Below are positions 13,173 to 53,239 of a DNA stretch of 58,769 nucleotides, one piece after another. Both the position numbers and the translations under genes were made by a program. Each line of letters begins with the position of its first letter. Position 1 is the first letter of the stretch. Source of the stretch: Gracilaria domingensis (taxonomy: Eukaryota; Rhodophyta; Florideophyceae; Gracilariales; Gracilariaceae); the NCBI GenBank assembly GCA_022539475.1, contig VCMS01000204.1, positions 176,461-235,229 on the forward strand. The letters are read 5' to 3'. The notes beneath the pieces were generated by a model. The model had not been told where the DNA came from, made no database searches, and saw only the letters and a list, made by a program, of their open reading frames with translations.

Positions 13173-13771
13173 CCAGAACACAGACGTTCGTAATCTAGTC
13201 CTATACCTCCTCGGTACGACCCTCAGGTCCCGACATCAGCGACAGATGTTCCTCAAAGGTACCGAGAGGGTAGGACCACCGTAACCAGACGTGGCTATAC
13301 TCGCGAGAGTGATAACCGACGTAGGCGGTTGGCGCCAGAGCCTCACTCGTGTAGAGTCCACTCAGGAGAGCGCTACTCGACAAAGAGTTTACTTAGAAGT
13401 GCTCCGGTTGACTTTACAAAGGTGCTCGCGACGACGAGGTCGAGCTCACCTAAGTAGGTCTAAACTAACTATGTACACGTGGTGCACACCCGCAGGGGTC
13501 CGTACACGTCGCTAGCCCAGTGTCAGGCACCTCAGGTGCACTACCTATTGTCCCGTAATATGCACACACACGGTGGTGTAGTACACGCGTCCACCTAGCG
13601 GTATTGGCCAGCAATGGCAACCCTGATTACAGGTAACTGTGGGAAAGCCATTCCAAAAGTAACCGCCAAAATTGGGTCCAACTCATAACTCTTCGAATGC
13701 ATCCTCGTATCACTCCCCTGAGTATATGAGGCGCATCATCCTGATAACCACGCAAATTGCGTTGCTCTACA
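13173..13771 (-). repeat. 3' LTR of element A (partial)
   Basis: On the - strand it begins TGTAGAGCAACGC, matching the TGTAGAGCAAAACGC start of the B and C LTRs, directly after a polypurine tract. The distal end falls in the gap. It is rich in short palindromes, for example ACGCAAATTGCGT, GCACCTCAGGTGC and ACTCGCGAGAGT. Confidence 0.8.
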
Positions 13772-13850: not shown

Positions 13851-15703
13851 ATGAGCGGTACCAACTCCTCGGTTTCTATACCTCGCAAGCGCGATACACA
13901 CTCAAGCGAACAGAGTATTCAAGTATCCAAACTCGATCACAGTACATCATCTGTCATTCCGATGAACCCGAACCAGTTTCCTCATCACCCGACGGGTCAG
14001 GCGAGCGCCTCGAACTACCCTCAGCCGGGTTCTGCGACGGCTCCACTGCCTCAGTCTCAACCGATGGTCCCGGTGAACGTTCCGTTATGGAATTCAGCGC
14101 AAGCGATGCGGCTGATGGCGAACCAAGCTGGTTGGATATCGAAGGATTCTCTCGCAGTACGCGATCCACTCCGTGATGGGTTTGCGTTCAGCCGTGCACC
14201 GTGGTTTCATCCGGTAGCTGTTAACGATGACAGTCTCCTGGAGTCGTATGCCGAAAACGGCTTCCTACCGGGCGGTCTGCCGTTAGCGGTAGTGCAATCC
14301 TCAGAATGGAAAGTTCGAATAGCGATCGACCCGATGCTCCTCCGGTACGATACCCACGAGGGTGAGAACCTGAACACCGCGCGCGCGGAACACGCGAAGT
14401 TGGCGTACAAGAGACTCAGTCGAGTGCACCTTGAGCACCTGGTTCCACCGTCATATGGGTTCGATACTCCGTTCTACCGTACTTTCGGTGAAGTCCGATA
14501 TGGAGACAACTTGGCGACGTTCAACCATACGCGGTACGCTGGCGATGGCACGACCACATCGAGGTTGATGTTGTGCTGGAATCGGCCCATACTCCGAGCG
14601 GAGTTCAGTTATCTTCGCAAGAACGCTTCCCAGCGTGGGTTCGTCAACCGCATTCGGTTTGAGCGGAAAGCTCGTTCCTGTCATGGGTATCTGATTCCGT
14701 ATCCGAAAATCGAGACCGAGAGGTACAGACCGCAGGCCTTTGTTGGACGGTTCCCTCCTCTACCAGATTGGTGGCGTGATGTGGAGGTACCCAAAGGGTG
14801 TTTTGCAGAACTGCCTCCGTGCTTGAGTTACTTCGGTTCCCGATTGATCAACGATTCGCATTCAGGATGGTGGGGTCTCGTAGCCGGCGAGTGGGCGGCA
14901 CGCGTAGCAGCGTTTCTCCTCTGGGACGCTTACGACAACTACCGTGTTTGGTATATTCCGCCGATGCTTCGCAGCATTATCCGCTCGCTGGATTTGCACA
15001 CTCCCTTGGGTTCCGAAGAGAACGTGGATGAGATCCATTACATCTTGGATGTTATCGATGGAATCGATTGGGAAACGGTGCCCCGTTCGCAACGCGGGAA
15101 AGGTCCTCGTCGTCACTACGACCACTCACCCGGTAGGAGACATCCCACCGCAAGAGATTTCGTGTATTACGACCCATGGGAGGGTACGATGACGACCAGC
15201 GCGTATGCCGAGTGGGCAGCGAACCAGCCACGGTCGATTCCAGACGGTCACCCCGTTGGGTTCATGTTCAGTGACAACTGGGTCGCCCCAGTGGATCGGG
15301 ATGATCCGAACATGGATACTGGTGGAGAGGCGTCGGGAGCACTCGTCGAGATGGACCAGGAGTTGGTGACGACCTACCGGCGGCGAATCAGGTGTTGCAC
15401 GCCAGCGGCGGGGTACCCCAGGCTGCTGTGGGTTGGAATGTTCCGACTCAAGCGAGTGTTCCGGTGGTGGGTCCGGCCCCTGTAGCGGCTACCGTTCCTT
15501 CGGTCCTTCCGGCCCCGACAGCTCCGGTCGCTCCGGGAGATTCTCCGGCGAACATCGCGATGTTGCGCGCCAGTCTCCAGAACGCTAGAATTATCGTGCC
15601 CGATCATCTCAACACTATGGCAGGGATACTGGCTTACGCCGTTCCGCACCCTTCGCAGGGTCCCTCCGGTAGCGGCGGTGCCGGTCCCTCATCGGGGGTG
15701 TAA
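13851..15703 (+). CDS. Antisense-gene protein of element A (unknown function, one frameshift)
   Basis: About 600 codons on the strand opposite to element A pol, starting at the ATG at 13851, roughly 80 bp from the LTR. The protein is homologous to the element B antisense protein. Both keep YRTFGEV-x-YGD-x-LA, RPILRAEF, VEVP-x-GC, ELPPCL-x-Y-x-GS, EW-x-x-RVAAFLL-x-x-AYD-x-YRVW-x-IP and DFVY-x-DPW. N- and C-terminal tails are Pro/Ser/Ala/Gly-rich and probably disordered. The frame is broken near 15380-15410: the main frame ends at 15485, while the conserved C-terminus (ending PSGSGGAGPSSG) continues in another frame to 15703. No signal peptide, membrane segment or known catalytic motif is visible. 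I do not recognise the family. Confidence 0.85.
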
Positions 15704-17455: not shown

Positions 17456-20400
17456 CTACCTGCGTGGGTGATTCTGACTTCGGTAGATCCCACAAGCCGC
17501 GATCAGGGCGGAGAGTCGCAGGGCGCGAAGATACGACCTGTTCGTCCCCTGTAGCTTCACCCAGTTGGGTGTTAACGTGTGAACGTAGGGTGGTGGGGCC
17601 AGCGCGACACGATCTAACGATATCCGTTCGTGGAGATTATTGATATCCAATACTACGGTATCGTCCGTGACGGAAATAACCTTGTAGGGTCCTTCCGCGA
17701 TAGGCGAGGGCTTGTGGCGGCGTTCCTTCTCCGGATTATAGTATTCTTTGCGGAGAAATACCATATCGTCTGGTTTGACCTTTGGTAATGGGGTCTTAAC
17801 CTTCGCATCGAAGTTGCGCTTATAAGGGGTCTGCGCCTTATCCATCGCTGTGCGAGCGACCGGTACCACCTTGGTTAACCAATCCTTCCAAGCGTTCCTG
17901 TATAACCCAACAGACGGGTACGTAGAAAGTGTTTCTTGAGCCTCGATAGCGACCGGTGGCGGTACTCTTGACAATACCAACTCAAAAGGTGCTAGCTTCG
18001 TTACCCGGTGGACTTGGGTGTTGCACGCATACGTAATAGCGTCCGTATACAAATCCCAATCTTTAGGATGATCTGCCCCATAAGATCTTAATGCATTTAG
18101 CATGGTACGGTTAAATCGTTCTACCTGACCATTTGTTTGGGGGTGGTAGGTGGTCGTAAATAGATTCTTGACACTCAAGATCCGAACGACGTCCTGGAAA
18201 AACTTCGACGTGAACTGTGAACCGTTATCTGATAATAGATGAACCGGTGGACCGTACACAAAGACCCAGTGGGTGACAAAAGCTTGTGCAACCACGGTGG
18301 CCGTAATCCGTTTAAGCGGGACTGTCCGTACCAACTTAGAGAACCGATCGGTGATAACCAGAAGGTATCGATTACCTCTTGCGGTTCTGATCAATTCACC
18401 TAAGATATCCATAGCGATAAACTCCAAAGGAGACCGTGCTGGGAACAGCGTTAACTTCTTCGAGTACTTACGAAGTTTCACGTTATTCATAGCGCACTCG
18501 GTGCAAGAGCGTCGTACTGCGTAGCAGTCCAATGCCATCGACGGCCAGTAAAAATCCCTACGCAGGGTCAAGTATAGTTTTCGACCTTCTGGGTGGGCTC
18601 CTACCTTCACATAGTGTTTCATGACCAACAAACGGTTTTGCAGCGAGTATGGGACCACAATTTGGGTATACGCTCCAACCAACCTAACCAGGTACCCCTG
18701 ATCGTTAACCTGAAAAGGTATACGATCTCCTCCATTGAGACGAGCGCGAATTCGCGTACAAAACTCATCCGTTTGCTGTTCTCGGATCATCTCCTCGGGA
18801 GTGATGGGTACAAAAGATCCAGTCAAGGGATCCAACTTCTCAGAAGTGAGCAGGATGTCGTCACAGATGTCATCCTACAAAGATTCGACCCAACCTGCTT
18901 GTTCTTCCACCATAAAGCATGGTATGTCCAGATCGTCAACTGGTGCCGCTTCTGCATTTGTTCCCAAGCGGGAGAGTGCATCTGCCTGCAGATTCAACGT
19001 TCCTTTTTGTACGTAACTGTGAAATCGAACTTCGATAACCTCAAGCGCCAACGCATCAAGCGTCCTGATGGTTCCGAGATTTCCATGAGCCATCGGAGAG
19101 ATGAGTGGTCCGTATGTACCGTAAAATGGTTGCCCATAAGATATGGCCTCAGTGTAGTTAGAGCCCATACAACGGCTAAGCACTCTTTCTCCGAAACTGA
19201 GTAGTTACGTTCGTGTACGTTCAAAGATTGCGACCAGTATCCAATTGGATGTCTCACGCCGTCTTCCGTGACGTGAAACAGGGCGCAACCAACCTGGTGT
19301 GCACTGGCATCAGTGTCTACTTCGAATGGAAGTCCTAGCTTAGGCAAAGCCAAGATTGGCGGTGACGTTACTCCGTCAATTAATGCCGAAAAGGCAGACG
19401 CTTCCGCGTCGCCTAGAGGTTCCAGTTGAACTGGTTGATCTTTTCTCAAAAGGTGATTAAGAGGGGTCGCAATATCTGCGAAGTTCGGGACAAAACGCCG
19501 ATATACATTACAAAGACCCAGAAAACTGCGCAGTTCCGTTCGTGTCGTAGGGTGTTTCGCTTCTTTCAGCGACTTCACGCGAACTGCGTCAACTGAGAGC
19601 TGTCCAGGTCGGATGATATGCCCTAGGTATTTGACAGAATCTGTGAAGAACTCGCACTCTTGAGTTTCAGCGTAATGCCCGCGTCCCTGAGGACTCTCAT
19701 GACGTCCCGGACGTGTGTTAAGTGGTCATCAAGGTTATCGGCGAACACGATGATATCGTCAAGATACACCAAGCAGGTCTTCCACTTGAATCGAGCCAAG
19801 AGGATATCGATAGCACGTTGAAACGTAGCCGGTGCGTTGGTTAATCCGAACGGCATTCGTTTAAACCGGTACAAACCTTGGTGGCACACAAAAGCAGTTT
19901 TATCCTTATCCTTTTCACGGATCGGAACTTGCCAGTATCCCCAATTGGCATCCAAGGCGGTGAACACTGTAGCACTCCCAAGCGAGTCAATGTATTCGTC
20001 CATCCTGGGTATGGGATAAACGGCTTTGACGGTGACCGAATTTAGACGACGGAAATCAATACAGAATCGCCATGATCCGTCCGCTTTTGGAACTAGCACC
20101 ACGGGTGAGGCCCAAGCGGATTGAGCCGCCTCTATGACGCCAGCGCGTAACATCTTCTCAACCTGAGATTGCTCTTCTTCCCTAGGTTTGGGACCAGCCC
20201 GGTATGGGTGTTGGGGAATGGGGATAGTACCTGGAAGTAGGTCAATACGGTGTTCCGTGATTCCAATTGTCCCGAGGGATCCATCCCACATGGGTGTGAA
20301 CTCCATCAACATTTCTCTTAGCTTATCTCTATGAGATTCAGGTAGATGATCAAAATTCAACTGTTCCAGTTCCTTGACAGGGTCTGTATCTTCCGTTCCT

Positions 20401-20710
20401 GGTGGCAACGCTTTACCCTCGGTGGGTGCCAGCGATTCGGTGACTTCGCTCGCCGGGGTAACCGATGCGGTAAAAGCGGTTTCCGCTGATCCCTCCCCCT
20501 CCTTAGCATCGGTTATACCGAGAACATCCGCAACGGGTATCTTCGTCTGTACGATAGCAGCAGGGTGTGGGAGAGTGGTACCAAGGATTTGGTTTTTAGC
20601 TAACCACTGTCGGGTTGTGCCAAAGTTGGCGACCAAAACTCTGAATGGTTTGTCGGGTTCCACCGAGATTACTCCGTTCGCCAAAGCGAGTTGCTTCTGA
20701 TCATACAATG
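17456..20710 (-). pseudogene. Pol (RT, RNase H, integrase) of element A
   Basis: From 20710 leftwards. A pre-RT spacer is followed by reverse transcriptase with ALDANWGYWQVP, RMPFGLTNAPATFQRA and the catalytic YLDD (about 19760). RNase H follows (DTDASAHQVGCALF, HTDHSSLRW, LQADALSRL). Integrase has an HHCC finger (H-Y...H-P...CTEC), DD(E) residues in AMDILGEL, LSDNGSQF and NGQVERFN, and a GPY motif (GPYKVI). Defects: a one-base loss near 19657, an A-run frameshift near 19010 and a TAG at 18875-18877. It lacks gag and protease. It encodes the replication and integration enzymes but cannot be functional as read. Confidence 0.9.
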
Positions 20711-20711
20711 A

Positions 20712-23700
20712 TATGCAGTAGATACGGATGCGAGCGACTACCAAGTCGGCTGTGCCCTATTCCAGACCACCAATGATGGCGAGCGATTGCCAATTGGGTA
20801 TTGGTCAAGGAGCCTCAACGTTCACGAGAGGAATTACTCGGTATCCGAGAAGGAGTGCTTGGCCGTTGTCTGGGCGTTACAGACACTGCGGCCCTATCTT
20901 ATGGGGACCCGCTTCATTGTTCATACCGATCATTCGGCATTACGCTGGCTACTCTCTATAGCAGAGCCATCTGGCCGCTTGATGCGGTGGAGACTTCGCT
21001 TGTCGGAATTCGACTTCGAAATCCGTTACAAGAAAGGACTCCTGAACACTCAGGCTGATGCACTGTCCCGCTTGGAAACAGCGGCTGAAGCTGCGCCAGT
21101 CGATGATCTGGAGATACCGTGCTTTCTCGTGGAAGACGGCTCGAGCGATGCCGATGAAGAATCGGAAGGATGGGACATCTACGATGCTGTTTTAGCCGTG
21201 TCAGACACGCAACCCGAACCGGGCTCTTTCGTACCGATCAAGCCGGAGGAACTCATCCGGGAGCAGCACACCGACCGTTTTTGTACGGAGATTCGTAGTC
21301 GTCTAAACGGTGGAGCACAGTTGCCTTTCGTCGAGAACGACCAAGGATTTCTAATCCGAACTGTCGGAAACAGGCCACAGATTGTGGTTCCGCACTCACT
21401 TCAGTCACGAGTACTGCATTTGTCGCACTATGCGAAGTTGTCAGCCCACCCTGGTGGCAGGAAGTTGTACTACACCTTACGGAAGGACTTTTACTGGCCA
21501 GCAATGGCTTTCGACGCGTATGCCACTGTTCGTGGATGTTCTGACTGCGCGAAGAACCGCGTCAAGCTGCATAAGTATTCCAAGAAGTTGGCGCTATTCC
21601 CTGCTAGGGCTCGACTGGAGTTTGTGGCGATCGATCTACTCGGCGAGTTTATTCGCACCCGCCGGGGAAACCGGTTTTTGCTTGTTATCACCGACCGCTT
21701 TTCTAAGCTGGTACGGACTGTGCCTTTAAAGAAGGTTAGTGCTAGTGCGGTCGCCCAAGCTTTCGTTACTCACTGGGTTTTTGTCTACGGACCGCCGATT
21801 GACTTACTATCGGATAATGGACCGCAGTTCACGGCTAAGTTCTTTCAGGACGTATGCCGCATCTTGCGGATCCAAAACTGGTTTACGACAACATATCATC
21901 CCCAGAGTAATGGGCAGGTTGAGCGTTTTAACCGCACGATGCTCAACGCATTGCGGACGTTTGTTGCCGAGCATCCGTCGGAATGGGATCAGTACACCGA
22001 TGCGGTGACTTATGCCTACAATACGCAGGTTCATCGCACGACTCGGATCTCGCCGTTCGAGCTTGTGCTATCACGCGTCCCACCTTCGGTGGCTATCGAG
22101 CCACAGCCAAGTTTGGATAAGTTTCCGTCGCCCCGTCTACACAGGGACGCCTGGAAGGACTGGCTTAAGAACATTATCCCTACAGTTGGGCAGCATATCG
22201 CTAAGGCCCAGGCCGCATACAAGCGGAATTTCGACGCTAGAGTGCGTAAGAATGCCCCTCAGATCAGGGAAGGTACCTTTGCCTTCGTACGGAAGGAGTA
22301 CTACAACCGTGAAAAGGAGAAGCGCCACAAGCTTTCTCCTATCGCGGACGGCCCGTTCCGGGTTATTGCTGTCACCGACACAACGGTTGTCCTTGATATC
22401 AAGGGAGAGCACGAGCGTTTGTCGCTAGATCGCATAACGCCTGCGCCAAAGCCTGTTTCGCAGGATTCGCTACCGTCATCGTCGGCCCCTACCGCACCCA
22501 CTGTGGAAACAGCCGTCGAAACGGAAACAGGCGCCGCGGCGGGTACTCGCACTCAACCGTCTGTGTTGCCGCATCCGGATCGCGGACTTGCTCATTTGCC
22601 TGCTAAGCCGGAATCTGACCGGTTGGTCTCCAATGCTGCACATGTGCACACGCGGATAAGGGCCCCTATGGGGATACTCGCCGCCACCCCCGACACTCCC
22701 ACTGAGGAGGGGGAGGAGGCAGGTCGCTCTTTGTCGCTGTCGCCGTCATCGACGGAGTCGCCTTCGCAGGCCTCTGTATCGCACGCAAGTCGTGATGAAT
22801 GCACGTCAACGCGCGACACACAGCCGGAGAGCCGGAAAGAAGAGAACGACGCGCAGCTACCGCGGAAGCCTCAAGAAGAGGAAGATCACTCTCGCTCACC
22901 ACCGCCGTCGCGAACGGAGTTACGCTTGCAGGCCCAAGAACGGGAACACAGTACCGATGTGGTACGTGATTTGCAGCCGGAAAGCCGGAGGGATCGCACA
23001 GTTTCGCGTTCTGAGAAGGACGCCACCTCGGTGACGATTGCAGCCGGAAGACCGGAAGAGAAGGACGCGCCGTTACCACGGAAGGCTGAGGTGAAAGGCA
23101 CCACTACGGTGAATCGCAAAGCCGGAAGTCCGGAGAAAGAAGAGTTAGCTCGAAAAAACCGTGCTGTTACGGCAGACCCGACTTCGGGAGATTTTGGTGC
23201 AGCACCGAGTGCCAAAGCCGTCAAAAGGACGGAACCAACCACCAGTGTGGCGAACAGTCAAGCCGCAGCAAGTGGGCAGCACTCAAGCACTGACGACGCG
23301 TGCACGTCGCGCCAAGTGTCGAGCTCCGTGGGAGATCCGCCTCCAACCGGGGATTACAGTGCGCAAGCCGGGCACGTGCCAGCCACAGACCTGGCGCCGT
23401 CTAAAAACGGTTCAAAAAATTCCGAATTTGAATCGGCTCTTGACAGCCATGCAAAGGCGCAGGTGTCGCAAACCGCAGCGCGCGGCGAACCGCCGCCACG
23501 GCACGTGCCAGAACACCACTCGCTGGCTCACCGCTCTGCGGACCGTTCACCGTCGCAACGGGAGATTGTGCCGGAACGCCGGAAGCTCGCTATTCGAGAA
23601 GACCGAAGCACGGTCACAGCCCAGCAGCATGGGGAGAAGAACCAGGAATCTGGAAGCATGATGGTCAGGAAAGTACCATGGTCACGAAGACCAAAGCCTG

Positions 23701-24035
23701 GCGTACAGGATGTACTGCCGTCAGGACGGAAGCCGATCACGAACGACGATGCCCACGACGGGAGAAGCGACGACTACGCCTCGAAAGAGGATTCTTCAAG
23801 CAAGCCGCACACAGAGCGGAGTGTTCTCGATGAGGAATATGTCATTGACCGTCTGGTAAGTCACTGCTACGCCCCTGACGGGAAACTACTGTATCGAGTC
23901 CGTTGGTACGGCTACGCCTCCTCAGAGGATACGCACGAGCCCATTGAGCACTTGCCTCGCTCGAAGGTCTTGCAGTACCACCGTCGCACACGGACACCGA
24001 TACCGGCTACGCTGGACAAGGCCCAAGTGGGTTGA
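20712..24035 (+). CDS. Pol fragment: RNase H, integrase, long linker, chromodomain (element B)
   Basis: An uninterrupted frame from the truncation point. It has no true start codon because the 5' part is missing. RNase H shows DTDAS, KECLAV, HTDHSALRW and QADALSR. Counting from 20787, the integrase HHCC finger is at residues about 211-253 (HYAK..H, CSDC). The catalytic D/D/E lie in AIDLLGEF (about 281), LSDNGPQF (about 341) and NGQVERFN (about 376). The GPF module is at about 521. A low-complexity linker of about 470 residues follows, with recurring RKPQEEE, RPEEKDAPLPRKAE and KAGSPEKEELARK motifs. The chromodomain is at about 1017-1068 (EEYVIDRLVSH, YRVRWYGYASSEDTHEPIEHL). A linker this long between integrase and chromodomain is unusual. 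Confidence 0.93.
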   Translation, partial: YAVDTDASDYQVGCALFQTTNDGERLPIGYWSRSLNVHERNYSVSEKECLAVVWALQTLRPYLMGTRFIVHTDHSALRWLLSIAEPSGRLMRWRLRLSEFDFEIRYKKGLLNTQADALSRLETAAEAAPVDDLEIPCFLVEDGSSDADEESEGWDIYDAVLAVSDTQPEPGSFVPIKPEELIREQHTDRFCTEIRSRLNGGAQLPFVENDQGFLIRTVGNRPQIVVPHSLQSRVLHLSHYAKLSAHPGGRKLYYTLRKDFYWPAMAFDAYATVRGCSDCAKNRVKLHKYSKKLALFPARARLEFVAIDLLGEFIRTRRGNRFLLVITDRFSKLVRTVPLKKVSASAVAQAFVTHWVFVYGPPIDLLSDNGPQFTAKFFQDVCRILRIQNWFTTTYHPQSNGQVERFNRTMLNALRTFVAEHPSEWDQYTDAVTYAYNTQVHRTTRISPFELVLSRVPPSVAIEPQPSLDKFPSPRLHRDAWKDWLKNIIPTVGQHIAKAQAAYKRNFDARVRKNAPQIREGTFAFVRKEYYNREKEKRHKLSPIADGPFRVIAVTDTTVVLDIKGEHERLSLDRITPAPKPVSQDSLPSSSAPTAPTVETAVETETGAAAGTRTQPSVLPHPDRGLAHLPAKPESDRLVSNAAHVHTRIRAPMGILAATPDTPTEEGEEAGRSLSLSPSSTESPSQASVSHASRDECTSTRDTQPESRKEENDAQLPRKPQEEEDHSRSPPPSRTELRLQAQEREHSTDVVRDLQPESRRDRTVSRSEKDATSVTIAAGRPEEKDAPLPRKAEVKGTTTVNRKAGSPEKEELARKNRAVTADPTSGDFGAAPSAKAVKRTEPTTSVANSQAAASGQHSSTDDACTSRQVSSSVGDPPPTGDYSAQAGHVPATDLAPSKNGSKNSEFESALDSHAKAQVSQTAARGEPPPRHVPEHHSLAHRSADRSPSQREIVPERRKLAIREDRSTVTAQQHGEKNQESGSMMVRKVPWSRRPKPGVQDVLPSGRKPITNDDAHDGRSDDYASKEDSSSKPHTERSVLDEEYVIDRLVSHCYAPDGKLLYRVRWYGYASSEDTHEPIEHLPRSKVLQYHRRTRTPIPATLDKAQVG

Positions 24036-24545: not shown

Positions 24546-26345
24546 TTACGCGCCGGACGGCCCAGCACCTGGGGTGCCCCCACTACCGGGAGCCCCGGAG
24601 AAGCGCTGTGCCGCTATTGCTTGCAACTCCGACTCGTCGGTCACCGTATCGGGAACGGCCACTCCCACGCCTCGAAGGAAGTCGCGAATGACCGCCGCTC
24701 GCGGAGTGAGAGAAGAACTGCCGCCCACGGCGGATGCTACATCCTGAGCCCACGGGCCGGTCGGAGCGGGAGCCGCTACAGCGGGTGGGTCAACGATCAC
24801 GACTTCGTCGTCATCTCCCGTAGTGTCGGGCTCCGAGGCAACCCCCACTGGGCTCCCCTCATCCATGGGACTTCCTCCCTCTGCAGGGTCATCACCGTCA
24901 TCGTCGACGTATACGAACCCACGCGGGTGCCCTTCCGGGATATATCGCTCCTCTCGGCGGCGACCAGCCGCCTCAGCGGGGCCAATTACCTCCCAAATCC
25001 ACGGGTCAAAGTATACGAAGTCGCCGGCGTTGACGTTCCGTCCGGGAGAACGGTCCGACTGCCGGCGGACTCCGTCGGAAACCTGACTAGCAGGCACCTC
25101 ATTCCAGTCAATCTGGTCAATGACGTCCACCAACGCGGTGGCTTCGCGCGCATTGCGGACCGAGCCGAGCACTTCGGAGAGATCCAACGCTCGGATCGCT
25201 TGCCGGATGAGTTCCGGGATGAACCAAACTCGGTACGAATCATATGCCTCGATGAGGAGGAAAGCCGCAACGCGGACGGTCCATTCTGTTGCCAGGATGC
25301 TCCACAGGCCGCGAGGCGGATCGTTCATGAAGTATGAGCCTATGTAAGTTAGGCAGGGCGGTAGCTCTACGTGACACCCTCGTGGGACTTCGACCGCAGG
25401 CCAGAATGACGGCAGCGGCAGGTATCGCCCAGTATGGGAGTGACGCGCAATGCGTTCCACCTCCGTGCACTGGTACGGCACCAGTACCCCGAAGCGGGAA
25501 CGCCATTTCCTCTCGAAGCGGAGGCCTTCATGAAATTGAGACCGTCCAGGACGGCGAAGGAACCGGAACTCGGCGCGAAGGATCGGCCGCGCCCACAGGA
25601 TCAACTCCTGCTGCGGCTGAACGGTATCCGAATATCGGTCAATTTCGTCCAACGCGTTGGCTAGATGGTCGCCGTAGCCGACCTCGCCGAAAGTTCGGTA
25701 ACGTGCCACATCGTACTGGTACTGTGCCGGCACCGGATGTTCGTTCGGAGCTCGGAAGTGTCGCGCGTACCCAATGCGGGCCATCTCATTGCGAGCGAAT
25801 TGTCTCGTCTCGTTTCGACCTACAAACAGGCAGCTCGGTATAACCGCAACGCGGGCGATCCAGTCCCATGAACGGGTAACGTCAGCAGGAAGCCCACCAG
25901 GGAGTTGACCGTCGACAGCGTACGAGTCGACGAGCTCTGTATCCCGAACGGCTTCGGCGTCAAACCAGGGAGCCTGGGCAAAAAGGAAACTGTGCCGGTG
26001 GGGATCCCGGATGCGTAACGCGCCTGCGGTAGGCCATCCACCCAGCGTAGCTGGCATCTCGGCGTTGAACCAATCCCACACGGGCGCGGGACCAGCCTGA
26101 GCTGGAGCGTGATCTTGTCCGGAAGAACCCGGCTGGGAGGCAGCCGCCGACTGCGGGAGAGGAACAGACCGGAACGGCGGGTTCGATACTTGCATGCGTG
26201 CCGTCGAGGACGGAGGGCCGTTCGGTGCGTTGGACATCGCGGGAGGGCTCGAGATGACGAGGTTCGCTACTGACACCGGAGGTGTTGGTGGCTCCGAACA
26301 GTTCTCGGCAGACCCGTCTTGGGAGACTTCCTTATATACCTCCAT
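24546..26345 (-). CDS. Antisense-gene protein of element B (599 aa, unknown function)
   Basis: An intact 599-codon ORF opposite to pol, starting ATG at 26345, 53 bp from the 3' LTR. Residues 1-87 are Pro/Ser-rich. The conserved core is at about 88-450: YRTFGEVGYGDHLAN (216-230), RPILRAEFRFLRR (253-265), VEVPRGC (318-324), ELPPCLTYIGSYF (327-339), EWTVRVAAFLLIEAYDSYRV (354-373) and GDFVYFDPW (441-449). The acidic, Gly/Pro-rich tail ends AGPSGA. There is no signal peptide, transmembrane segment, zinc finger or recognised catalytic motif, so an envelope protein is unlikely. Conservation with element A despite wide divergence argues for selection on this frame. Convergence with pol means its transcript would pair with genomic element RNA. 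The promoter must lie in or next to the LTR. Confidence 0.92.
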   Translation of the reverse strand: MEVYKEVSQDGSAENCSEPPTPPVSVANLVISSPPAMSNAPNGPPSSTARMQVSNPPFRSVPLPQSAAASQPGSSGQDHAPAQAGPAPVWDWFNAEMPATLGGWPTAGALRIRDPHRHSFLFAQAPWFDAEAVRDTELVDSYAVDGQLPGGLPADVTRSWDWIARVAVIPSCLFVGRNETRQFARNEMARIGYARHFRAPNEHPVPAQYQYDVARYRTFGEVGYGDHLANALDEIDRYSDTVQPQQELILWARPILRAEFRFLRRPGRSQFHEGLRFERKWRSRFGVLVPYQCTEVERIARHSHTGRYLPLPSFWPAVEVPRGCHVELPPCLTYIGSYFMNDPPRGLWSILATEWTVRVAAFLLIEAYDSYRVWFIPELIRQAIRALDLSEVLGSVRNAREATALVDVIDQIDWNEVPASQVSDGVRRQSDRSPGRNVNAGDFVYFDPWIWEVIGPAEAAGRRREERYIPEGHPRGFVYVDDDGDDPAEGGSPMDEGSPVGVASEPDTTGDDDEVVIVDPPAVAAPAPTGPWAQDVASAVGGSSSLTPRAAVIRDFLRGVGVAVPDTVTDESELQAIAAQRFSGAPGSGGTPGAGPSGA

Positions 26346-26385
26346 CGCGAGGCGTATCGAGCCGACGGAGTCGGTGTCTCAGCCT

Positions 26386-26398
26386 GAGAAGGGGGAGA
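26386..26398 (+). promoter_or_regulatory. Polypurine tract of element B
   Basis: GAGAAGGGGGAGA immediately before the TG of the LTR. Confidence 0.9.
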
Positions 26399-27255
26399 TG
26401 TAGAGCAAAACGCCCTTTGTGGGGATGCACCGAGGTGCTTTTCATAGTTTGTTGATCCGTTACCGGCTGCGACACCTCAGGTTATGAGAGGCTACTGGGG
26501 TAGTGCCCCTATTTTGGGGTATGCCTAGGAAGGGTAGTATTTCTGCACACGTGTGCCAAGTTGGCCCGATCGCGCGGGCCCCGTGGCAAGCATGCCACGG
26601 GGGCACACCTGTAGTGTATTGGCCGGCAGCGCCGGATAGTTAGATATTTTAATTGATATTTTCAAGTGCCGTATATAAGTGGCGGCACTTGCCGCCACTG
26701 TACGGGAAGTAAACCTCAACGAGGCCTTTGGCTCTGATCTTCTTGCCGCTTGCGCACGGTCACCAGCCCCATCCTGGGGAATACCGCCGCAATTCCGGGC
26801 TGATCAACCAACCTCCGTCCCTGAGGAGTACTAATCCGTCGTCACGGCACTTTTCTTATCTATTTTATTGTTGTCATTTCCGTCTTACGGCTTTCGCTAC
26901 TCTGCCCTACATTGTAGGTTTGTCCCATTTGTCTCGGGAGTTTTCCCGCTTATCGCGAGTCAGTGCTCCGCAGTGCGGCTCGTTTGTTGATCTTTTGTCG
27001 TCCCATACCGTTGGGCTGGATACCCCCACTCGCTGTGGCTCGCCGGAACCATCCGGATACCTACGCCGATTCTACCCCTTCTACCTCCGACTGCACGCCC
27101 AGATCGGGGCCACCCGGATTTACACCCGGCTTGTGTTGGCCCTATCGGAGGGTTCTGCCGCTCGACTGCCCTTCACAGGGAGCAGGGCCTGAACACCCTG
27201 AGGTGCTCGTCCGCGACGCGGCTTGTTGTTTTCCCGTCAAGGGTTTTGCACCACA
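26399..27255 (+). repeat. 3' LTR of element B (857 bp, hairpin-rich)
   Basis: Begins TGTAGAGC and ends GCACCACA. It has the same length as the 5' LTR of element C and is almost identical apart from a short U3 block. Twenty short inverted repeats can be listed, including 26427-26438, 26506-26519, 26545-26556, 26578-26604, 26679-26698, 26767-26779, 26836-26847, 26880-26890, 26906-26918, 26935-26948, 26968-26978, 27043-27056, 27105-27116, 27169-27180, 27194-27205 and 27211-27221. Confidence 0.95.
26672..26698 (+). promoter_or_regulatory. LTR TATA box followed by 8-bp stem hairpin
   Basis: TATATAAG at 26672-26679, overlapped by GTGGCGGC-ACTT-GCCGCCAC at 26679-26698. The same arrangement is at 44439-44465, 55349-55375 and (indel-noisy) from 57755. 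It is the likely core promoter for gag-pol RNA; the hairpin falls about where transcription should start. Confidence 0.75.
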
Positions 27256-27573
27256 CACATGACTATATCGTTCGCCACTAATACCGATTTGGAAAAAGAA
27301 TTCCATGTTGTCTGGTGACGTCATTACTCCGACAGAAGTTGAATAGGAGGCCGCCAAAACATGTTGAATCAAGACACCTTTGAGCTCAAAGACGTTCGTT
27401 AGGGATTGTCGACGTACGCGTAACACGCGGTTTGCATTCGTGGGAATTTTGGATAGCACATTCTCCAGAAGGAAAACGTCAAACGTGTCCAAGCGAGAAA
27501 GACCAGACTCACTCAAAAGACGAGCGCCTTGGGTCTCTGAATCTTGAATCTCTTTCGTAACGTTTCTCAACAT
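27256..27573 (-). pseudogene. Host ORF truncated by element B
   Basis: A - strand frame starting MLRNVTKEIQDSETQ and reading to the LTR edge at 27256, where it runs into element sequence. It remains open upstream of this ATG (RLRKQFLYEANT), so it may be a downstream exon of the gene at 27618-28322. Family not recognised. The insertion removes its natural C-terminus here. Confidence 0.45.
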
Positions 27574-44165: not shown

Positions 44166-45022
44166 TGTAGAGCAAAACGCCCTTTGTGGGGATGCACCGA
44201 GGTGCTTTTCATAGTTTGTTGATCCGTTACCGGCTTCGACACCTCAGGTTATGAGAGGCTACTGGGGTAGTGCCCCTATTTTGGGGTATGCCTAGGAAGG
44301 GTAGTATTTCTGCACACGTGTGCCAAGTTGGCCCGATAGCGGGTGCGCCGTGGCAAGCCTGCCACGGTTGCACACCTGTAATGTATTGGCCGGCAGCGCC
44401 GGACAGTTAGATATTTTAATTGATATTTTCAAGTGCCGTATATAAGTGGCGGCACTTGCCGCCACTGTACGGGAAGTAAACCTCAACGAGGCCTTTGGCT
44501 CTGATCTTCTTGCCGCTTGCGCACGGTCACCAGCCCCATCCTGGGGAATACCGCCGCAATTCCGGGCTGATCAACCAACCTCCGTCCCTGAGGAGTACTA
44601 ATCCGTCGTCACGGCACTTTTCTTATCTATTTTATTGTTGTCATTTCCGTCTTACGGCTTTCGCTACTCTGCCCTACATTGTAGGTTTGTTTTATTTGTC
44701 TCGGGAGTTTTCCCGCTTATCGCGAGTCAGTGCTCCGCAGTGCGGCTCGTTTGTTGATCTTTTGTCGTCCCATACCGTTGGGCTGGATACCCCCACTCGC
44801 TGTGGCTCGCCGGAACCATCCGGATACCTACGCCGATTCTACCCCTTCTACCTCCGACTGCACGCCCAGATCGGGGCCACCCGGATTTACACCCGGCTCG
44901 TGTTGGCCCTATCGGAGGGTTCTGCCGCTCGACTGCCCTTCACAGGGAGCAGGGCCTGAACACCCTGAGGTGCTCGTCCGCGACGCGGCTTGTTGTTTTC
45001 CCGTCGAGGGTGTTGCACCACA
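44166..45022 (+). repeat. 5' LTR of element C (857 bp)
   Basis: TGTAGAGC...CACCACA. TATA box 44439-44446 and following hairpin 44446-44465. The U3 stem at 44344-44372 has different outer arms from that of B and D. Confidence 0.97.
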
Positions 45023-45025
45023 AAC

Positions 45026-45186: not shown

Positions 45187-47196
45187 ATGTCGTCCCGTCG
45201 CAGGAGTGGCGCGCCACGTGCCGCTTCTGTGCCCGGTTCGTCCGGCTTGCCGGCAAGTTTGCCTCCGTTGCCGAAGGACGCACTGGAGGTCCCAGGCAAT
45301 GGCGACCCGAAACCGGCTTCCCGGGGCCGCCGTTCTGATAACGGGACCCCACCCACTCGTGGGCCAACTGAAACCGCACCTGCGGCTGATGCCGCCGCAG
45401 CGGTTGACGTTATGTCGTCGCGGTCCGACGAGTATACCCTCCGTGAATTAGAGGCTCAGTTTCGCATCCTGCAGAACTCCCAAGTGGGCCTCATCCGGGA
45501 CATTACGAAACTCCGGCAACGGCTCGATGAAGCCGGTGTCCGGGATGTTTCGAGCGACGTCCGTGTTTTACGGTCTGATGTCAACCAGATTATGGAACAC
45601 CGACAGGTGTCGGCTGGTCTGCACGAGCAGGCTGCCGCACGCCTGGACCGCCTGGCTACCCGTCTGGAGACGGTCGAGCAAATCATCGTATCTGATGCTG
45701 TTGCGCCGGGAGCCCCGGTTTCTGAGGGTTCTCAGCACTCGCGCCGTTCCCGGGATCGTCCGGCAAAGAAGAAGGTCAAGGTTGAGTCTGACTCGTCTTC
45801 TTCATCCTCTTCTGATGAGGAGGGCCCCAAAAAGGGATCGTCTACCGACTCTTCGGACAGCGCGGAAGAGCGCTCTCGCTATCGTGCATCCCGTTCGCGG
45901 GCTACTGAAGCCACTTCTGGCGTTGCACGAGGCCGTACGAAAGGACGGAGACACCTCGGATTGAAGGAGTTGAAGCCGACAAACTTACTGTATCGGAAGC
46001 TACTATCTTACCGATATTATCGGCTTGATGACACGACGCCACAGAGGACCCCACGTGGGACTGGCAAAGTGCGAAATCATCTCCGACAAATGGAGCTCAC
46101 GTTAAAGCCCCACAAGTTCTCTGGGGAAGATCCAATTCTTGTCTTGGATTTTCTTAGCCGCTTCGTAGCGGAAGCCGATGTACTTCGGATGAGTGAGGCA
46201 CAGGCCTACATCGCGCTGCCGTACTTTTTGACGGGTGTAGCCGAAGATCAATTCAATTCGGTTCGTGGGTCGTCTCGCGCCTCCGAAGGAGGAGTTACGT
46301 GCTGGCCGGAAGCGGTACAATATCTCCTGCGCTCTTACGCGACAGGCAATGCGATACAAGGTGCCATACTCGCGCTACGAGACACGAAGCAAGGAGCCGA
46401 AGAGTCGGAAACCGTTTATTCGACCCGCCTCAATAAGGCTTTCCACAGATGTGGCAACGTGTTCTCCGCAGCCGAGCGGTGTACGATGTTTGTTGATGGA
46501 CTGGACCGATCAATTCGGACGTTGGTAGCCCATTATCGGGAGAACAAACGCCGGATTACCTATCTGGAACTCGTTCAATTTGCCCAAGCGGAGGGAGATG
46601 CAGCTCGAGCACGCACTGGTATCAAGGCGCGCACGCGCCGACTCCTTCATGTAGAAGGCCGAGACTCCTCACTGCCTCACTCGCGAGGTTCTGTTCAAGG
46701 GGGTTATGATAACCTGCACCTGTTACAGGACGATGGTTCAATGCCGAGTTCGGAATTGCCGTCGACGACGGAGCAGTCTACAGTGGACGGAGACCCCGCT
46801 CTGTACGCCGGACGTCAAGTCCCGGCATTGCCCGTGCCGCACTCTGGCGGATATCGAAGCCAACGCCCTGGATGGAGGGACCCGTATCCTCCTCGACAGG
46901 AGCGCCGGCCACCCAACGCGGATCTTCTTCGTCACCTTATTTGTCATACCTGTTACAGGCCAGGGCACATCGCTCCGAATTGCTTAATGCCCATACGGGA
47001 TATGGCGAAGATAGTGCCTCAGTATGAGTCGTTGACGCCCGCCGAGCGGGAACGTGTTCCCGACAAGTCGTACCTTCGTGCGAAGGCGGAGACTCAGCCT
47101 GGAAACCAGGAAACGGTGCCATCGAATGGTGGAACTGTAGCCGCCCCTGCGGAATCGCAACCTCCGCAGATTGGCGGCGACGCTCAGAAAAACTGA
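45187..47196 (+). CDS. gag: Gag polyprotein of element C
   Basis: 669 codons from the ATG at 45187. The N-terminus is basic (MSSRRRSGAPR). A long coiled coil is at about residues 84-180 (LRELEAQFRILQNSQVGLIR). A Ser/acidic stretch is at about 200-225, and the retrotransposon gag (capsid-like) domain at about 305-495 (PHKFSGEDPILVLDFLSRFV). A CCHC zinc knuckle lies at about 585-598 (C-HT-C-YRPG-H-IAPN-C). Gag forms the cytoplasmic particle and binds element RNA through the knuckle. It ends AAA AAC TGA next to a probable frameshift site. The coiled coil is an unusual addition. Confidence 0.95.
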   Translation: MSSRRRSGAPRAASVPGSSGLPASLPPLPKDALEVPGNGDPKPASRGRRSDNGTPPTRGPTETAPAADAAAAVDVMSSRSDEYTLRELEAQFRILQNSQVGLIRDITKLRQRLDEAGVRDVSSDVRVLRSDVNQIMEHRQVSAGLHEQAAARLDRLATRLETVEQIIVSDAVAPGAPVSEGSQHSRRSRDRPAKKKVKVESDSSSSSSSDEEGPKKGSSTDSSDSAEERSRYRASRSRATEATSGVARGRTKGRRHLGLKELKPTNLLYRKLLSYRYYRLDDTTPQRTPRGTGKVRNHLRQMELTLKPHKFSGEDPILVLDFLSRFVAEADVLRMSEAQAYIALPYFLTGVAEDQFNSVRGSSRASEGGVTCWPEAVQYLLRSYATGNAIQGAILALRDTKQGAEESETVYSTRLNKAFHRCGNVFSAAERCTMFVDGLDRSIRTLVAHYRENKRRITYLELVQFAQAEGDAARARTGIKARTRRLLHVEGRDSSLPHSRGSVQGGYDNLHLLQDDGSMPSSELPSTTEQSTVDGDPALYAGRQVPALPVPHSGGYRSQRPGWRDPYPPRQERRPPNADLLRHLICHTCYRPGHIAPNCLMPIRDMAKIVPQYESLTPAERERVPDKSYLRAKAETQPGNQETVPSNGGTVAAPAESQPPQIGGDAQKN

Positions 47197-47268
47197 GCAA
47201 GGGAGCCTCCAGCAATGGAGAGGCGCCCCCAGCGACGGGGTTTAGTGCGCCTGAGGCTGAGAAGCCTC
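47188..47268 (+). promoter_or_regulatory. Probable -1 ribosomal frameshift site between gag and pol
   Basis: G-AAA-AAC is read directly before the gag TGA. The pol frame is -1 relative to gag and is open across this point. Eleven nt downstream a hairpin (GCCTCC...GGAGAGGC, 47205-47224) follows, then a 6-bp stem with a GAGA tetraloop at 47253-47268. The heptamer is imperfect because its first base is G. Confidence 0.55.
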
Positions 47269-50200
47269 GCTCCCCGGTCACAATCCTTTCGAGGAAACTG
47301 GCCACTACAGACGTGGACTCTGAGCACCTTGGTGTCTTGCGTCGCCCGTGGATACGGTCTAAGAACAGCCGGTTCCCGGATAGAGTCCTGGTCATGGCGA
47401 AACGTAACTACAAAGTTTACGCCGACCTGGGTGTTTCCGACCAGTACATGGTTCGGCAGTTGTCCGTGCTCGATACAGGAGCTGGGCCAAATTTCTTGGT
47501 TGAATCAATGATTCCGCCGCACTTGCGGTCTCGCGTTCGTGCGGCGCCGCAGATCGATATAGCGGATGCGAACAATCGGCCACTTTCGACTGTGGGAGTA
47601 ATAGACCTGCTCGTCAGGCTTGGCCGCTACGTGGCGAAGCTCGACTTCTTGGTTTGCAAGCAACTCGCTGCGCCGGTTATCCTCGGCTGCGACTTCTGTG
47701 ACCGCTTCGTCGATGCAATTCGACCGCGGAAGCGAACCATCGAAATGGAAGATGGGACTACTGTACCGATCGTTCGGCGTCCTTTGCGCCGGGCTCTGAA
47801 GAAGCAAGTCCCTTTGCCTGCGGCACAGAAGCCTACAGCCGATGAACGGAAGTCTACAAAGCTCCGAGTAGCTCGGCCCATTTCCATCCCGCCTGAATCA
47901 CAGGTCTGGGTTACTGTGACCTCCCCACAATGTGGCTTACAAACGGTACAACCGTTGCCTGCGTTACAGGAGAAGCATCAGCTTGCCCTCGCTAATGGGA
48001 TTGTTTTCGTCGAACCCGAGAAGCCTTTTCAGGTGCTGGTTGCGAACTTCAGCCGTTTTTCTCAACGGTTGGTTAGGAGCCAAGTTATTGGTTCGTTGCT
48101 TCCGCACCCTGCGGCTATAGTGCCTACTCAGGTTTCTATTGCCGAGGTTCTCGGAATCCTCGAAGCTGAGGAGGGGGAGGCGGAACGGAACAATTCCGAA
48201 ACGACTGGACCGAACAGTTCGTCGGAAGATGCTACGCCGACTTCGTCGGATGCAAATAACCGCAGCCTGTCGAAGGAGGCAATGCCGACCTCGTCGGACA
48301 GTAATGATACGGACCTGAGTGCTGCTGACACGAAGGATAAGGCAGTACAGGAACTGGAGTCTCTGGATCTTGAACATGTCCCAGAGACTCACCGCGATAA
48401 ATTGCGGCACATGCTTGAGGAGTTCACGCCCATGTGGGATGGCACACTGGGTAAGATTGGTATTACCGAACATCGGATTGATTTGCTACCGAATACTCGG
48501 CCCATTTCACAGCACCCTTACAGGGCAGGACCGACAGCTCGGCAGGAGGAGAAAGCTCAAGTTGAGAAGATGCTCCGCGCTGGAGTTATCGAGCCGGCTC
48601 AGTCACCTTGGGCATCGCCGGTGGTGCTCGCGCCCAAAGCTGATGGGTCTTGGCGATTTTGCATCGATTACCGCAAGCTAAACGCGGCTACGGTCAAGGA
48701 TGTGTATCCTATCCCACGAATGGATGAATGCATCGATTCATTGGGCGACGCGAAAGTGTTCACAACCCTAGACGCGAATTGGGGCTATTGGCAAGTTCCC
48801 GTGAGGGCTGAGGATCGTGACAAGACAGCCTTCGTTTGTCATGAAGGATTGTACCGATTCAATCGGATGCCCTTTGGGTTAACGAACGCGCCAGCCACTT
48901 TTCAACGAGCTGTGGATATTTTGCTAGCCCGCTTTAAGTGGAAGACTTGCCTGGTATACCTGGATGACATCATTGTCTACTCCAGCAACCTGGATGAGCA
49001 CTTGACCCACGTACGGGATGTGATGCGAGTCCTACGCGATGCAGGCATTACGCTCAAGCTCAAGAAGTGTGAGTTCTTTACCGAAACCGTCAGGTATCTC
49101 GGCCATGTTATCCGTCCGGGACGGCTTTCGATTGACGAAGTACGCGTGAAATCCCTCAAAGAGGCTAAGCATCCGAGGACGCAGACGGAACTCCGATCTT
49201 TTCTCGGCTTGTGCAATGTGTATCGCCGCTTCATTCCGAACTTTGCGGATATCGCTGCACCTCTGAACGAGCTTCTTCGCAAAGGCCAGCCAGTCGATCT
49301 GGAAGAATTCGACAACCGCAAGGTCGCGGCTTTCTCGTCGCTCGTGGACGCGGTGACATCGCCACCTGTTTTATCCCTGCCTAGGGCTGGTTTGCCATAT
49401 GCAGTAGATACGGATGCGAGCGACTACCAAGTCGGCTGTGCCCTATTCCAGACCACCAATGATGGCGAGCGATTGCCAATTGGGTATTGGTCAAGGAGCC
49501 TCAACGTTCACGAGAGGAATTACTCGGTATCCGAGAAGGAGTGCTTGGCAGTTGTCTGGGCGTTACAAACACTGCGGCCCTATCTTATGGGGACCCGCTT
49601 CATTGTCCATACCGATCATTCGGCATTACGCTGGCTACTCTCTATAGCAGAGCCATCTGGCCGCTTGATGCGGTGGAGACTTCGCTTGTCGGAATTCGAC
49701 TTCGAAATCCGTTACAAGAAAGGACTCCTGAACACTCAGGCTGATGCACTGTCCCGCTTGGAAACAGCGGCTGAAGCTGCGCCAGTCGATGATCTGGAGA
49801 TACCGTGCTTCCTCGTGGAAGACGGCTCGAGCGATGCCGATGAAGAATCGGAAGGATGGGACATCTACGATGCTGTTTTAGCCGTGTCTGACACGCAACC
49901 CGAACCGGGCTCTTTCGTACCGATCAAGCCGGAGGAACTCATCCGGGAGCAGCACACCGACCGTTTTTGTACGGAGATTCGTAGTCGCCTAAACGGTGGA
50001 GCACAGTTGCCTTTCGTCGAGAACGACCAAGGATTTCTAATCCGAACCGTCGGAAACAGGCCACAGATTGTGGTTCCGCACTCACTTCAGTCACGAGTAC
50101 TGCATTTGTCGCACTACGCGAAGTTGTCAGCCCACCCTGGTGGCAGGAAGTTGTACTACACCTTACGGAAGGACTTTTACTGGCCAGCAATGGCTTTCGA

Positions 50201-52720
50201 CGCGTATGCCACTGTTCGTGGATGTTCTGACTGCGCGAAGAACCGCGTCAAGCTGCGGAAGTACTCCAAGAAGTTGGTACTCTTCCCTGCCAGGGCTCCA
50301 CTTGAATTCGTGGCAATTGACTTGCTCGGCGAGTTTATCCGCACTCGCCGGGGAAACCGGTTTCTACTTGTGATCACCGACCGTTTTTCTAAACTGGTAC
50401 GGACTGTGCCTTTGACGAAGGTTACCGCCAGTGCGGTCGCCCAAGCTTTCGTTACACACTGGGTTTTTGTCTACGGACCGCCGATTGACCTGTTATCGGA
50501 CAATGGACCGCAGTTTACGGCTAAGTTCTTTCAGGACGTTTGCCGCATCTTGCGGATCCAAAACTGGTTTACGACAACATACCACCCCAGAGTAATGGGC
50601 AGGTTGAACGTTTTAACCGCACAATGCTCAATGCATTACGGACATTCGTTGCCGAACATCCGTCGGAGTGGGATCAATACACCGATGCGGTGACATATGC
50701 CTACAATACGCAGGTTCATCGCACTACTCAGATCTCGCCGTTCGAGCTTGTGCTATCACGCGTTCCACCTTCGGTGGCTATCGAGCCACAGCCAACTTTG
50801 GATAAGTTCCCCTCGCCTCGTCTACACAGGGACGCCTGGAAGGCCTGGCTTAAGAACATCATTCCTACAGTTAGGCAAAACATCGATAAGGCACAAGCCG
50901 CGTACAAGCGGAATTTCGACGCACGAATGCGCAGGGATGCCCCTCAGATCAGGGAAGGTAACTACGCCTTCCTACGGAAGGAATACTATAACCCGGAAAA
51001 GGAGAAGAGGCATAAGCTCTCTCCTATCGCGGACGGCCCCTACAGGGTTATTTCTATCACCGATACAACGGTTGTCCTCGATATTGAGGGTGAACACGAG
51101 CGTTTTTCGCGCGATCGCGTAACGCCTGCGCCACAGCCTGTTCGTCAGGAAAAGCAACCGGAAACGCCGGACAGCGCTACGCCTACTGTGGACCAAGCCG
51201 CGACAGCGGGAGAGCGCGCTTCGTTGTCAGTCCTGCCGCATCCTAGCCGCGGACTTGCTGATTTGCCGGCAAAGCCGGAAGCTAACCCGCCAGTCTCGAA
51301 CGCCGCACATGTCCACACGCGGATACTGGCCCCTCAGGGGATACTCACCACCACCCCCGACGCTCCAACTGAGAAGGGGGAGGAGGAGGTAAGTCGCTCG
51401 ATTTCGTTGTCGCCGTCGTCGACGGAAGTGCCTTTGCAGGCCTCCGGGCCGCACGCAAGTCGTGGTGAAAGCACGCGGACGCGCGACGTACAGCCGAAGA
51501 TTCGGAAAGAGGCGAAAAACGCGCAGTTATCGCGGAAGCCTAAAGAGGAACGCACCACTTCGGTGGAGCACGAAGCCGGAGAACCGGAAGAACACCAGGA
51601 TGTAGCTGCTGCAGAAGTCGCCGCTTCGCCCGCGGATAGCACTGTACGGCCGTCACAGACGGAAGGACAAGAGCCTGCCCCAGCTGTGCAGCGTGAGACC
51701 GGTACGCCGGAAAAGAGGGTGGTAACCACCGCAGCAGCCACGTCGAATGCGGAAAGTACATGCCCGCCGCAGTCGGAGCCCGGCAGCGGCAGCGCACTCG
51801 CGTCAAAAGAAGCCGGAAGACCGGAAAAGAAGCCTGTCCAGAAAGACCGTGTTGTTACGGCAGACCCGATTTCGGGAGATTTTATTGAAGCATCGAGTAA
51901 TGAAGCCGTTGAAAACACGGAGGCAACCGCCGCAACAGCAGGCCGACATGCCACAGTAGGTGGGCAGCAGCCCAACGCTGCACACGCGCGCACGCTGCGC
52001 CAAGTGTCTGGCTTCGCCGGCGATCCGCCTCCAGTGGAGGGTGACAACACACGAGCCGGGCACGTGCCCGCTGTAAGGCTTGCGGCCGCCGGAAACGGAA
52101 ATTCCGAATTTGAATCGGCAACGCACAGCCGTGCAACGGCGCAGGCCCCACCGCCAGCAATGCTTGGCAAGGCGTCGCCTCGGCACGTGCCACGGCACCA
52201 CTCGCTGGCACACCGCATTGCGGACCGTTCACCCTCACTTCGGGAGATCTTGCCGGAACGCCGGAAGCTCGCTATTCGAGAACACCGAAGCTCGGTAACA
52301 GCCCGACAATACGGAAGGAAAGCCAGAACTCTGGAAGCATGAATGACAGGAAAACACCATGGTCAAAATGGCTCTCGCCTGGCGTACAGGGTGTCTTCCC
52401 TTTCAGGGACGGAAGCCGAAAGTAACCGATTGAAGCCTCTACACGGAAGAGTAACAACGACACTCGAGAGGAGGATTACATCGCAAAGCCGCAGTCTTGC
52501 GCGGAAGCGTCCTCGTATGAAAGTATAGTCATTGACCGGTCTGATAAGTCACGGCTACGCCCTGACGGGAACTACTGTATCGAGTCCGTGGACGGCTACG
52601 CCTCTTCAGAGGATACGCACGAGCCCATTGAGCACTTGCTCGCTGCGAAAGGTGTCTTGCAGTTACCACCGTCGCGACACGGACACTGATACCGCGCTAC
52701 GCTGACAGGGCCCAAGTGCA
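47193..52720 (+). CDS. pol: Pol polyprotein of element C (protease, RT, RNase H, integrase, linker, chromodomain)
   Basis: The frame is open from the gag end. Aspartic protease has LDTGAGPN (about 47470) and VILGCDF. RT has DANWGYWQVP, MPFGLTNAPATFQRA and YLDD (about 48957). RNase H has DTDAS (about 49408). Integrase has an HHCC finger (about 50110-50240), D in AIDLLGEF, D in LSDNGPQF and E in NGQVERFN (about 50602), then GPY (about 51040). A missing C near 50588 shifts the frame inside integrase: the first frame ends at 50693, the next runs 50540-52342. The linker keeps the PEK/RKP-type motifs of B. The chromodomain at about 52510-52700 is broken by indels. The frameshifts may be sequence errors. 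Confidence 0.9.
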
Positions 52721-52729: not shown

Positions 52730-53239
52730 CACGTCCTCTTAATTGATGCACAGCCGTCCAGACGGAATATTGGCCGCCTCTATGGGACAGTATTGTCATT
52801 ACGCAGAATATGGCCGCGTCCAAGCGATGCAACCTTGAGTAATCTGAGATCACTCATTGTCGCCCTCAGGCGGACCATTCGCTCTAAGCGGGACAGCTTT
52901 TGCTGAACAAACATGCCGCGAAATGCAGGAAGCCTACTACAGTGGAGAAGAAGATAAAGAAGAAGAAGCCCTAAGAAAGAAGGAGAAGAAGCCAGACACT
53001 GGAAGGAAGACTAAAAGTTTTATCGCTACAGCCGCGTTTGTGCGGAAAAGTTACCCCTCTCTGTGGCCATTTCCAACAGCCTCTATGAACGAGGTATGCG
53101 CCACTGTAGAAAGGGAGAGCAAGACGAAGAGTTGAGCCAAGCCAGCACGGCTGAGAAGTTTACCTCTAACTATTGAGTCGCCCTCATCATCGGGTCTATC
53201 GCGGATACCGTAGCCCGTAGGGGATCGCGAGCCGGGGAA
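52730..53239. other. Convergent spacer of element C
   Basis: Corresponds to 24036-24545 of element B. It has the same mini-hairpins and AAGAAG tract but many single-base indels. No gene. Confidence 0.8.

Follow-up and report, generated by a model that had tools for sequence, protein, structure and literature searches.

An antisense gene under protein-level selection between pol and the 3′ LTR of Ty3/gypsy elements in the red alga Gracilaria domingensis

Grande and RIRE2 are LTR retrotransposons of the Tat branch, without a chromodomain. Antisense ORFs lie between pol and the 3′ LTR in most copies of both elements, as gene23 of Grande in maize and its counterpart in rice RIRE2, and a nuclear protein and a promoter of its own have been reported for the Grande gene (PMC7264820). 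Retand is described in PMC11963269 as a non-chromovirus lineage confined to flowering plants, where 97% of clusters have a TRP28 domain in the antisense ORF and clusters 4 and 5 of Helianthus annuus have no such ORF. Outside plants, the LTR element Boty of Botrytis cinerea possesses an extra antisense gene (PMC7264820), named brtn in PMC8365987, and HTLV has an antisense promoter inside its 3′ LTR (PMC7264820). The functions of antisense genes in LTR retrotransposons are called unknown in PMC7264820 and PMC11963269. The open-licence literature that we searched, including the accessible portions of PMC5408684, PMC8365987 and PMC12502185, yielded no antisense gene in an LTR element of a red alga.

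Here we describe such a gene in Gracilaria domingensis, in a stretch of 58.8 kb (hereafter the window) of a 77.9 Mb genome in 680 contigs that we surveyed for further copies. As far as our searches reach, the architecture is already known from Grande, RIRE2, Retand and Boty, while the novelty lies in the protein family and in its red-algal setting. The red-algal elements share with Grande and RIRE2 an antisense gene between pol and the 3′ LTR, but the latter are plant elements, whereas ours belong to a red alga and have a chromodomain in two subfamilies; gene23 is set apart here by its description. The place and orientation of the gene are also those of Retand ORF4/TRP28, which is likewise absent from some members, but the red-algal proteins searched against Pfam gave no match to PF04195. 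Likened by description alone, Boty is another non-plant LTR element with an extra antisense gene, but in a fungal host, and HTLV, a vertebrate retrovirus, has the antisense promoter in the 3′ LTR that the algal element would also possess.

Three related elements were found in the window (Table 1), at about 13.2-20.4 kb on the minus strand, 20.7-27.3 kb and 44.2-55.9 kb; by content they correspond to the elements A, B and C of a preliminary description of this DNA. The second of these, which spans 20711-27258 and belongs to what we call subfamily 1, bears out the ORF of about 600 codons that had been claimed opposite a Ty3/gypsy pol: its antisense gene (24546-26345) is a single open frame from ATG to stop. 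In 2000 mononucleotide shuffles of the same bases, the longest open run in three frames had a mean of 151 codons and a maximum of 365. Among the intact genes of subfamilies 1-4 (n=4), the antisense frame was the only one open throughout, the longest other frame being 262 codons. The gene lies between pol and the 3′ LTR on the strand opposite to gag-pol, as do members of the aORF-3R class (antisense additional ORFs of LTR retrotransposons), and 53 bp, which include the polypurine tract, separate its ATG from the start of the LTR.

Table 1. Features of the three related elements in the window.
Feature	Position	Strand	Remarks
LTR of subfamily 2 element	13187..13771	-	minus-strand reading starts TGTAGAG at 13771, after purine tract
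Antisense gene, subfamily 2, 544 codons, partly decayed copy	13851..15485	+	element A
pol of minus-strand element (A), interrupted	17456..20374	-	
pol, 5′-truncated: RNase H, integrase, C-terminal chromodomain	20711..24035	+	same element as the 24546-26345 gene; part with these domains at 20787-24035
Antisense gene, 599 codons, subfamily 1	24546..26345	-	open frame; element 20.7-27.3 kb
Polypurine tract AGAAGGGGGAGA adjoining 3′ LTR	26387..26398	+	
3′ LTR of subfamily 1 element	26399..27258	+	starts after purine tract AGAAGGGGGAGA; first part directly upstream of antisense ATG, presumed antisense promoter site
5′ LTR, third element (C)	44166..45025	+	
gag-like ORF, third element	45187..47196	+	named by position; zinc-knuckle match at E 0.3 only
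pol, third element, two frames	47028..52342	+	
Broken antisense gene copy, third element	~53216..55025	-	24 deletions, 13 insertions vs 24546-26345
3′ LTR, third element	55077..55931	+	

All three elements had been said to carry a long antisense ORF, which holds for A (544 aa) and B but not for C. The third element is full-length (44166-55931), with two LTRs that are 96.6% alike, but its antisense gene, 94.5% identical in DNA to that of the second element, is interrupted by 37 indels in a MAFFT alignment. Its 97 substitutions are spread over codon positions 1/2/3 as 28/32/37 and, together with the indels, mark it as a broken copy. Since 16 of the 19 single-base deletions adjoin an identical base, decay and assembly error are both possible sources of the damage. 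Opposite the C-terminal part of pol, the third element also has a 342-codon open frame (51334-52362, minus strand), which is probably a mirror of sense coding bias.

In the subfamily 2 element (A), the ATG of the antisense gene is 79 bp from the LTR, and the LTR has the same first bases as that of the subfamily 1 element and follows a similar purine tract. The A and B proteins share 42% identity across 497 aligned columns (E 7e-115), and all six motifs listed in the preliminary description (YRTFGEV, RPILRAEF, ELPPCL, RVAAFLL, AYD-x-YRVW and DFVY-x-DPW) occur in both, encoded by codons that differ synonymously. The pol order is that of Ty3/gypsy elements, RT, RNase H and integrase (residues 74-234, 301-429 and 554-767 in the subfamily 2 copy L039, and likewise in L043 of subfamily 3). 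A chromodomain follows the integrase in subfamily 1 (E 5e-8) and subfamily 3 (E 2e-6). None was found in the L039 frame; in the window's own subfamily 2 element, the DNA at 16094-16292 is 71% like the chromodomain end of pol.

The remainder of the window contains several other features. The junction at 20374-20711 looks like the product of a rearrangement: the first two elements, which belong to different subfamilies and are each truncated within pol, abut there in head-to-head orientation. The beginning of another related element occupies 57471-58769, 90% like the LTR and internal sequence at 44166-45400, and ends at the window edge. A 613-codon transposase-like ORF at 29273-31114 (plus strand; DDE_1 E 3e-12, with a Psq-type helix-turn-helix just below cut-off) presumably belongs to a pogo/Tigger-like DNA transposon. 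A tandem repeat occupies 36276-37607, where self-alignment gives 80-87% identity at shifts of about 267, 524, 792 and 1042 bp. The 1617-codon ORF at 37564-42417 (plus strand) has no Pfam match; its serine/proline-rich product contains imperfect repeats and, close to the C-terminus, a hydrophobic stretch, and resembles a surface or wall protein of the host.

To place the gene in the wider family, we scored its copies across the genome and found six element subfamilies that carry it in the same place and orientation. Searching with the 599-aa protein, at least 73 places were scored for subfamily 1, of which 52 of 73 had no internal stop; searches with relatives gave at least 68 places for subfamily 2 (57 of 68 stop-free) and at least 41 for subfamily 3 (36 of 41 stop-free). 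These are hand counts of best-scoring places and so favour intact copies. The subfamily 2 figure is what remains of 78 matches after removal of 10 subfamily 1 copies; that for subfamily 3 derives from 83 matches, less 39 subfamily 1 copies (leaving 44) and three further places (C659, C436 and C298) whose frame length resembles subfamily 1.

Pairing of these places with RT positions, taken from the best 150 of 1776 candidates, revealed an opposite-strand RT past the stop codon in 29/73 copies of subfamily 1 and 27/68 of subfamily 2, at a median gap of 4120 bp. Exceptions were few: one same-strand RT and, in the three lists, wrong-side RTs in 2, 1 and 2 copies, respectively. Subfamily 3 had no partner among the best 150 RTs, the two pairings in its list having gaps that fit C436 and C298; the architecture was read directly in L043, as it was in L039 for subfamily 2. 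Outside the lists, we sampled 10 of the 92 RTs left without a partner. An opposite-strand relative of the gene accompanied seven of them, two as intact frames (685 codons) and five broken, and three had none. This sampling revealed three more subfamilies (L063/L064/L067, L065 and L066). Among the 10 sampled RTs the gene was thus more often present than absent, and its many copies, six subfamilies and occurrence in other genera rule out an unrelated host gene captured in one copy only.

The preliminary description had read the pattern of shared motifs as a sign of selection on the protein in the antisense frame. Because synonymous sites are saturated between A and B, dN/dS is not computable for this pair, and closer genomic copies were used instead (Nei-Gojobori). 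The window's subfamily 1 gene gave values of 0.16-0.22 against L048, L049, L051 and L052, and L043 of subfamily 3 gave 0.20-0.29 against L044, L054, L055 and L056, and 0.37 against L046, whose pairs ranged from 0.37 to 0.53. Several pairs were weakly constrained (L044-L054 1.18, L054-L055 1.10, L054-L056 0.67, L048-L049 0.61), as was the window's subfamily 2 gene against L039-L042 (0.66-0.71; 0.27-0.56 in other subfamily 2 pairs), as expected from copies decaying after insertion.

Differences were concentrated at third codon positions, with counts at positions 1/2/3 of 16/13/60 between the window gene and L048 and 35/24/111 between L043 and L044; the excess was less marked in closer pairs (17/7/22 for L044-L056, 4/10/18 for L039-L040). 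Among 29 same-length subfamily 1 copies, a set that includes the window's own locus, variable sites were distributed 16/25/60 by codon position (58 synonymous, 43 not), or 14/15/41 without the most diverged copy, L052. The dN/dS of about 0.16-0.29 in better-separated intact pairs, well away from the neutral value near 1 despite some higher close pairs, and the third-position excess indicate that the antisense frame is under protein-level selection. For the narrower conclusion, that the element really possesses a protein-coding antisense gene maintained by selection, our confidence is very high.

These data bear on the idea that the antisense transcript, and not the protein, is what matters, dsRNA formed with the genomic RNA dampening or tuning the element while the ORF is incidental. 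The gene is convergent with pol, and antisense dsRNA regulation has been discussed for plant elements (PMC7264820), but the purifying selection on amino acids, the third-position excess and the conservation of residues although synonymous sites are saturated make this idea highly improbable.

The gene is also old. RT synonymous sites are saturated among the six subfamilies (pS 0.74-0.88), and those of the antisense gene are saturated among subfamilies 1, 2 and 3. Between subfamilies, RT identity is 84-90% vs. 42-55% for the antisense protein, which therefore evolves much faster; 91 of 410 columns in the antisense-protein alignment are invariant. Antisense-protein similarity tracks RT similarity across the six subfamilies (r 0.72, exact Mantel 40/720), an agreement in rank that fits common descent, though with six subfamilies it is borderline. 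Homologues with E values from 7e-254 to 2e-43 were recovered from Gracilariopsis chorda (one) and Agarophyton chilense (two), as annotated genes, and elsewhere (two), and a further search added two. The nearest among the candidates scored, from Gracilariopsis chorda, is 66% identical over the whole protein. As the searches scored the best 7993-7998 candidates by shared words, more relatives may exist.

None of the 7993-7998 candidates scored was a relative that reveals the origin of the gene, which is what one might see if a host gene or another transposon had been captured long ago by one ancestral element and carried along without benefit. Purifying selection in at least two subfamilies and the steady position of the gene argue instead for a benefit to the element, and the gene is not a single-copy capture; we consider passive carriage very unlikely.

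We then turned to the protein itself. Searches of Pfam, PHROGs and PDB sequences returned no credible family, and a fold search with a core-only structure model (pLDDT 65.7, pTM 0.61; mostly helical, with some confident parts) gave no match. PF04195 (TRP28/Transposase_28) did not match at E up to 1 in the window protein or up to 5 in nine family members, in a test with the whole Pfam library in which HMMER filters discard most very weak matches. A conserved core of about 370 residues is flanked by variable tails, and the alignments contain the conserved stretches APWF, YRT-x-GE, LRAEFR, PYQ, GRY, ELPP, DPW and SPGR. As the preliminary description had stated, the protein has no envelope features: the highest 19-residue Kyte-Doolittle window in ten proteins was 1.53, with no membrane segment. 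In its antisense orientation, too, the gene departs from env.

A broader possibility is that the protein is a structural or movement component, for instance an additional protein of the particle or a stand-in for the envelope in cell-to-cell passage, rather than a regulator. The gene does occupy the place of retroviral env, at 599-685 codons its frames are longer than one would expect of a regulator, and no known fold speaks against such a role. On the other hand, the antisense orientation uncouples its expression from that of gag-pol, and the protein neither has a membrane segment nor resembles the third element's gag-like ORF. We regard a structural role as possible, though unlikely.

The gene had also been called an integral part of the family. 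It is typical, as the sampled RTs attest, but it is not required in cis, for a non-coding segment replaces it in amplified derivatives. In L061 and L062 (99.8% identical), the end of a subfamily 1 pol is followed by about 1.5 kb with no ORF over 122 codons and then by the LTR from about its 310th base. The replacing segment is present in 17 full-length copies with 99% or higher identity and in 20 others at 76-90%; its flanks were read in four copies (L061, L062, L073 and L074). By hand comparison with the best 150 RTs, 8 of the 17 near-identical copies have a same-strand RT 4.05-4.08 kb before them. L073, which belongs to the older group, retains the tract and LTR, the replacement of the gene reaching to about 12 bp upstream of the ATG, and the preceding pol (L071) is 95.8% like 21545-24480; L074 resembles L073 on the LTR side (79%). 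At C22, 4.1 kb separate another copy of the segment from an RT that is only 0.06 synonymous substitutions per site away from the RT of the third element. At L058, the last of the three gene-less loci in the RT sample, subfamily 2 is represented by LTR sequence only.

Subfamily 1 pol is thus followed by one of two classes of 3′ module: either the antisense gene or, in L073 and L074, a stretch of about 1.1 kb in which no ORF reaches 90 codons. In L061-type copies (L061 1-2757), the first 309 bp of the LTR are also replaced, and the new LTR start of this type recurs at C12 (L075), about 4 kb before an RT.

The occurrence of gene-less L061- and L073-type copies on subfamily 1 pol indicates that loss or replacement took place within subfamily 1 and that such copies spread. 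Since derivatives without the gene have amplified, it is not needed in cis; the protein either acts in trans or is dispensable, and the derivatives also fit a dispensable gene. The gene might then be useful only to some subfamilies or at some stages, the gene-less derivatives being fully autonomous, and the numbers of copies of the replacing segment, the four replacements read directly and one derivative with an open RT frame of 1899 codons all speak for this. Against it stands the fact that selection has kept the gene in subfamilies so divergent that their RTs are saturated at synonymous sites, and we think such limited usefulness rather improbable.

The best explanation, to which we give about an even chance with the function included, is that this is a trans-acting accessory gene of a red-algal Ty3/gypsy group, expressed from an antisense promoter in the 3′ LTR. 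It would have been inherited with pol since before the six subfamilies diverged. The short distance between ATG and LTR makes the LTR the likely site of the promoter, and transcription would start within the LTR portion that precedes the ATG by 53-79 bp. The protein may act in trans on the element cycle, whether in expression control, in nuclear entry or integration, or in shielding the element from host silencing, and gene-less derivatives could use protein made by other copies. Fast change, persistence under selection and the spread of gene-less copies fit a trans-acting factor that meets host factors. A more specific version is tentative and on balance doubtful: the protein would be a fast-evolving trans-acting anti-silencing factor or host antagonist with a new fold, the gene would be a 3′ module open to exchange, in some copies together with the neighbouring LTR portion, and the gene-less derivatives would be parasites of the parasite.

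Globally, our data show that this kind of antisense gene also occurs in red algae and in chromodomain-bearing elements, and reveal one that is large, old and under protein-level selection. As gene-bearing and gene-less copies occur together in a small genome, the role of the gene can be tested by comparing them.
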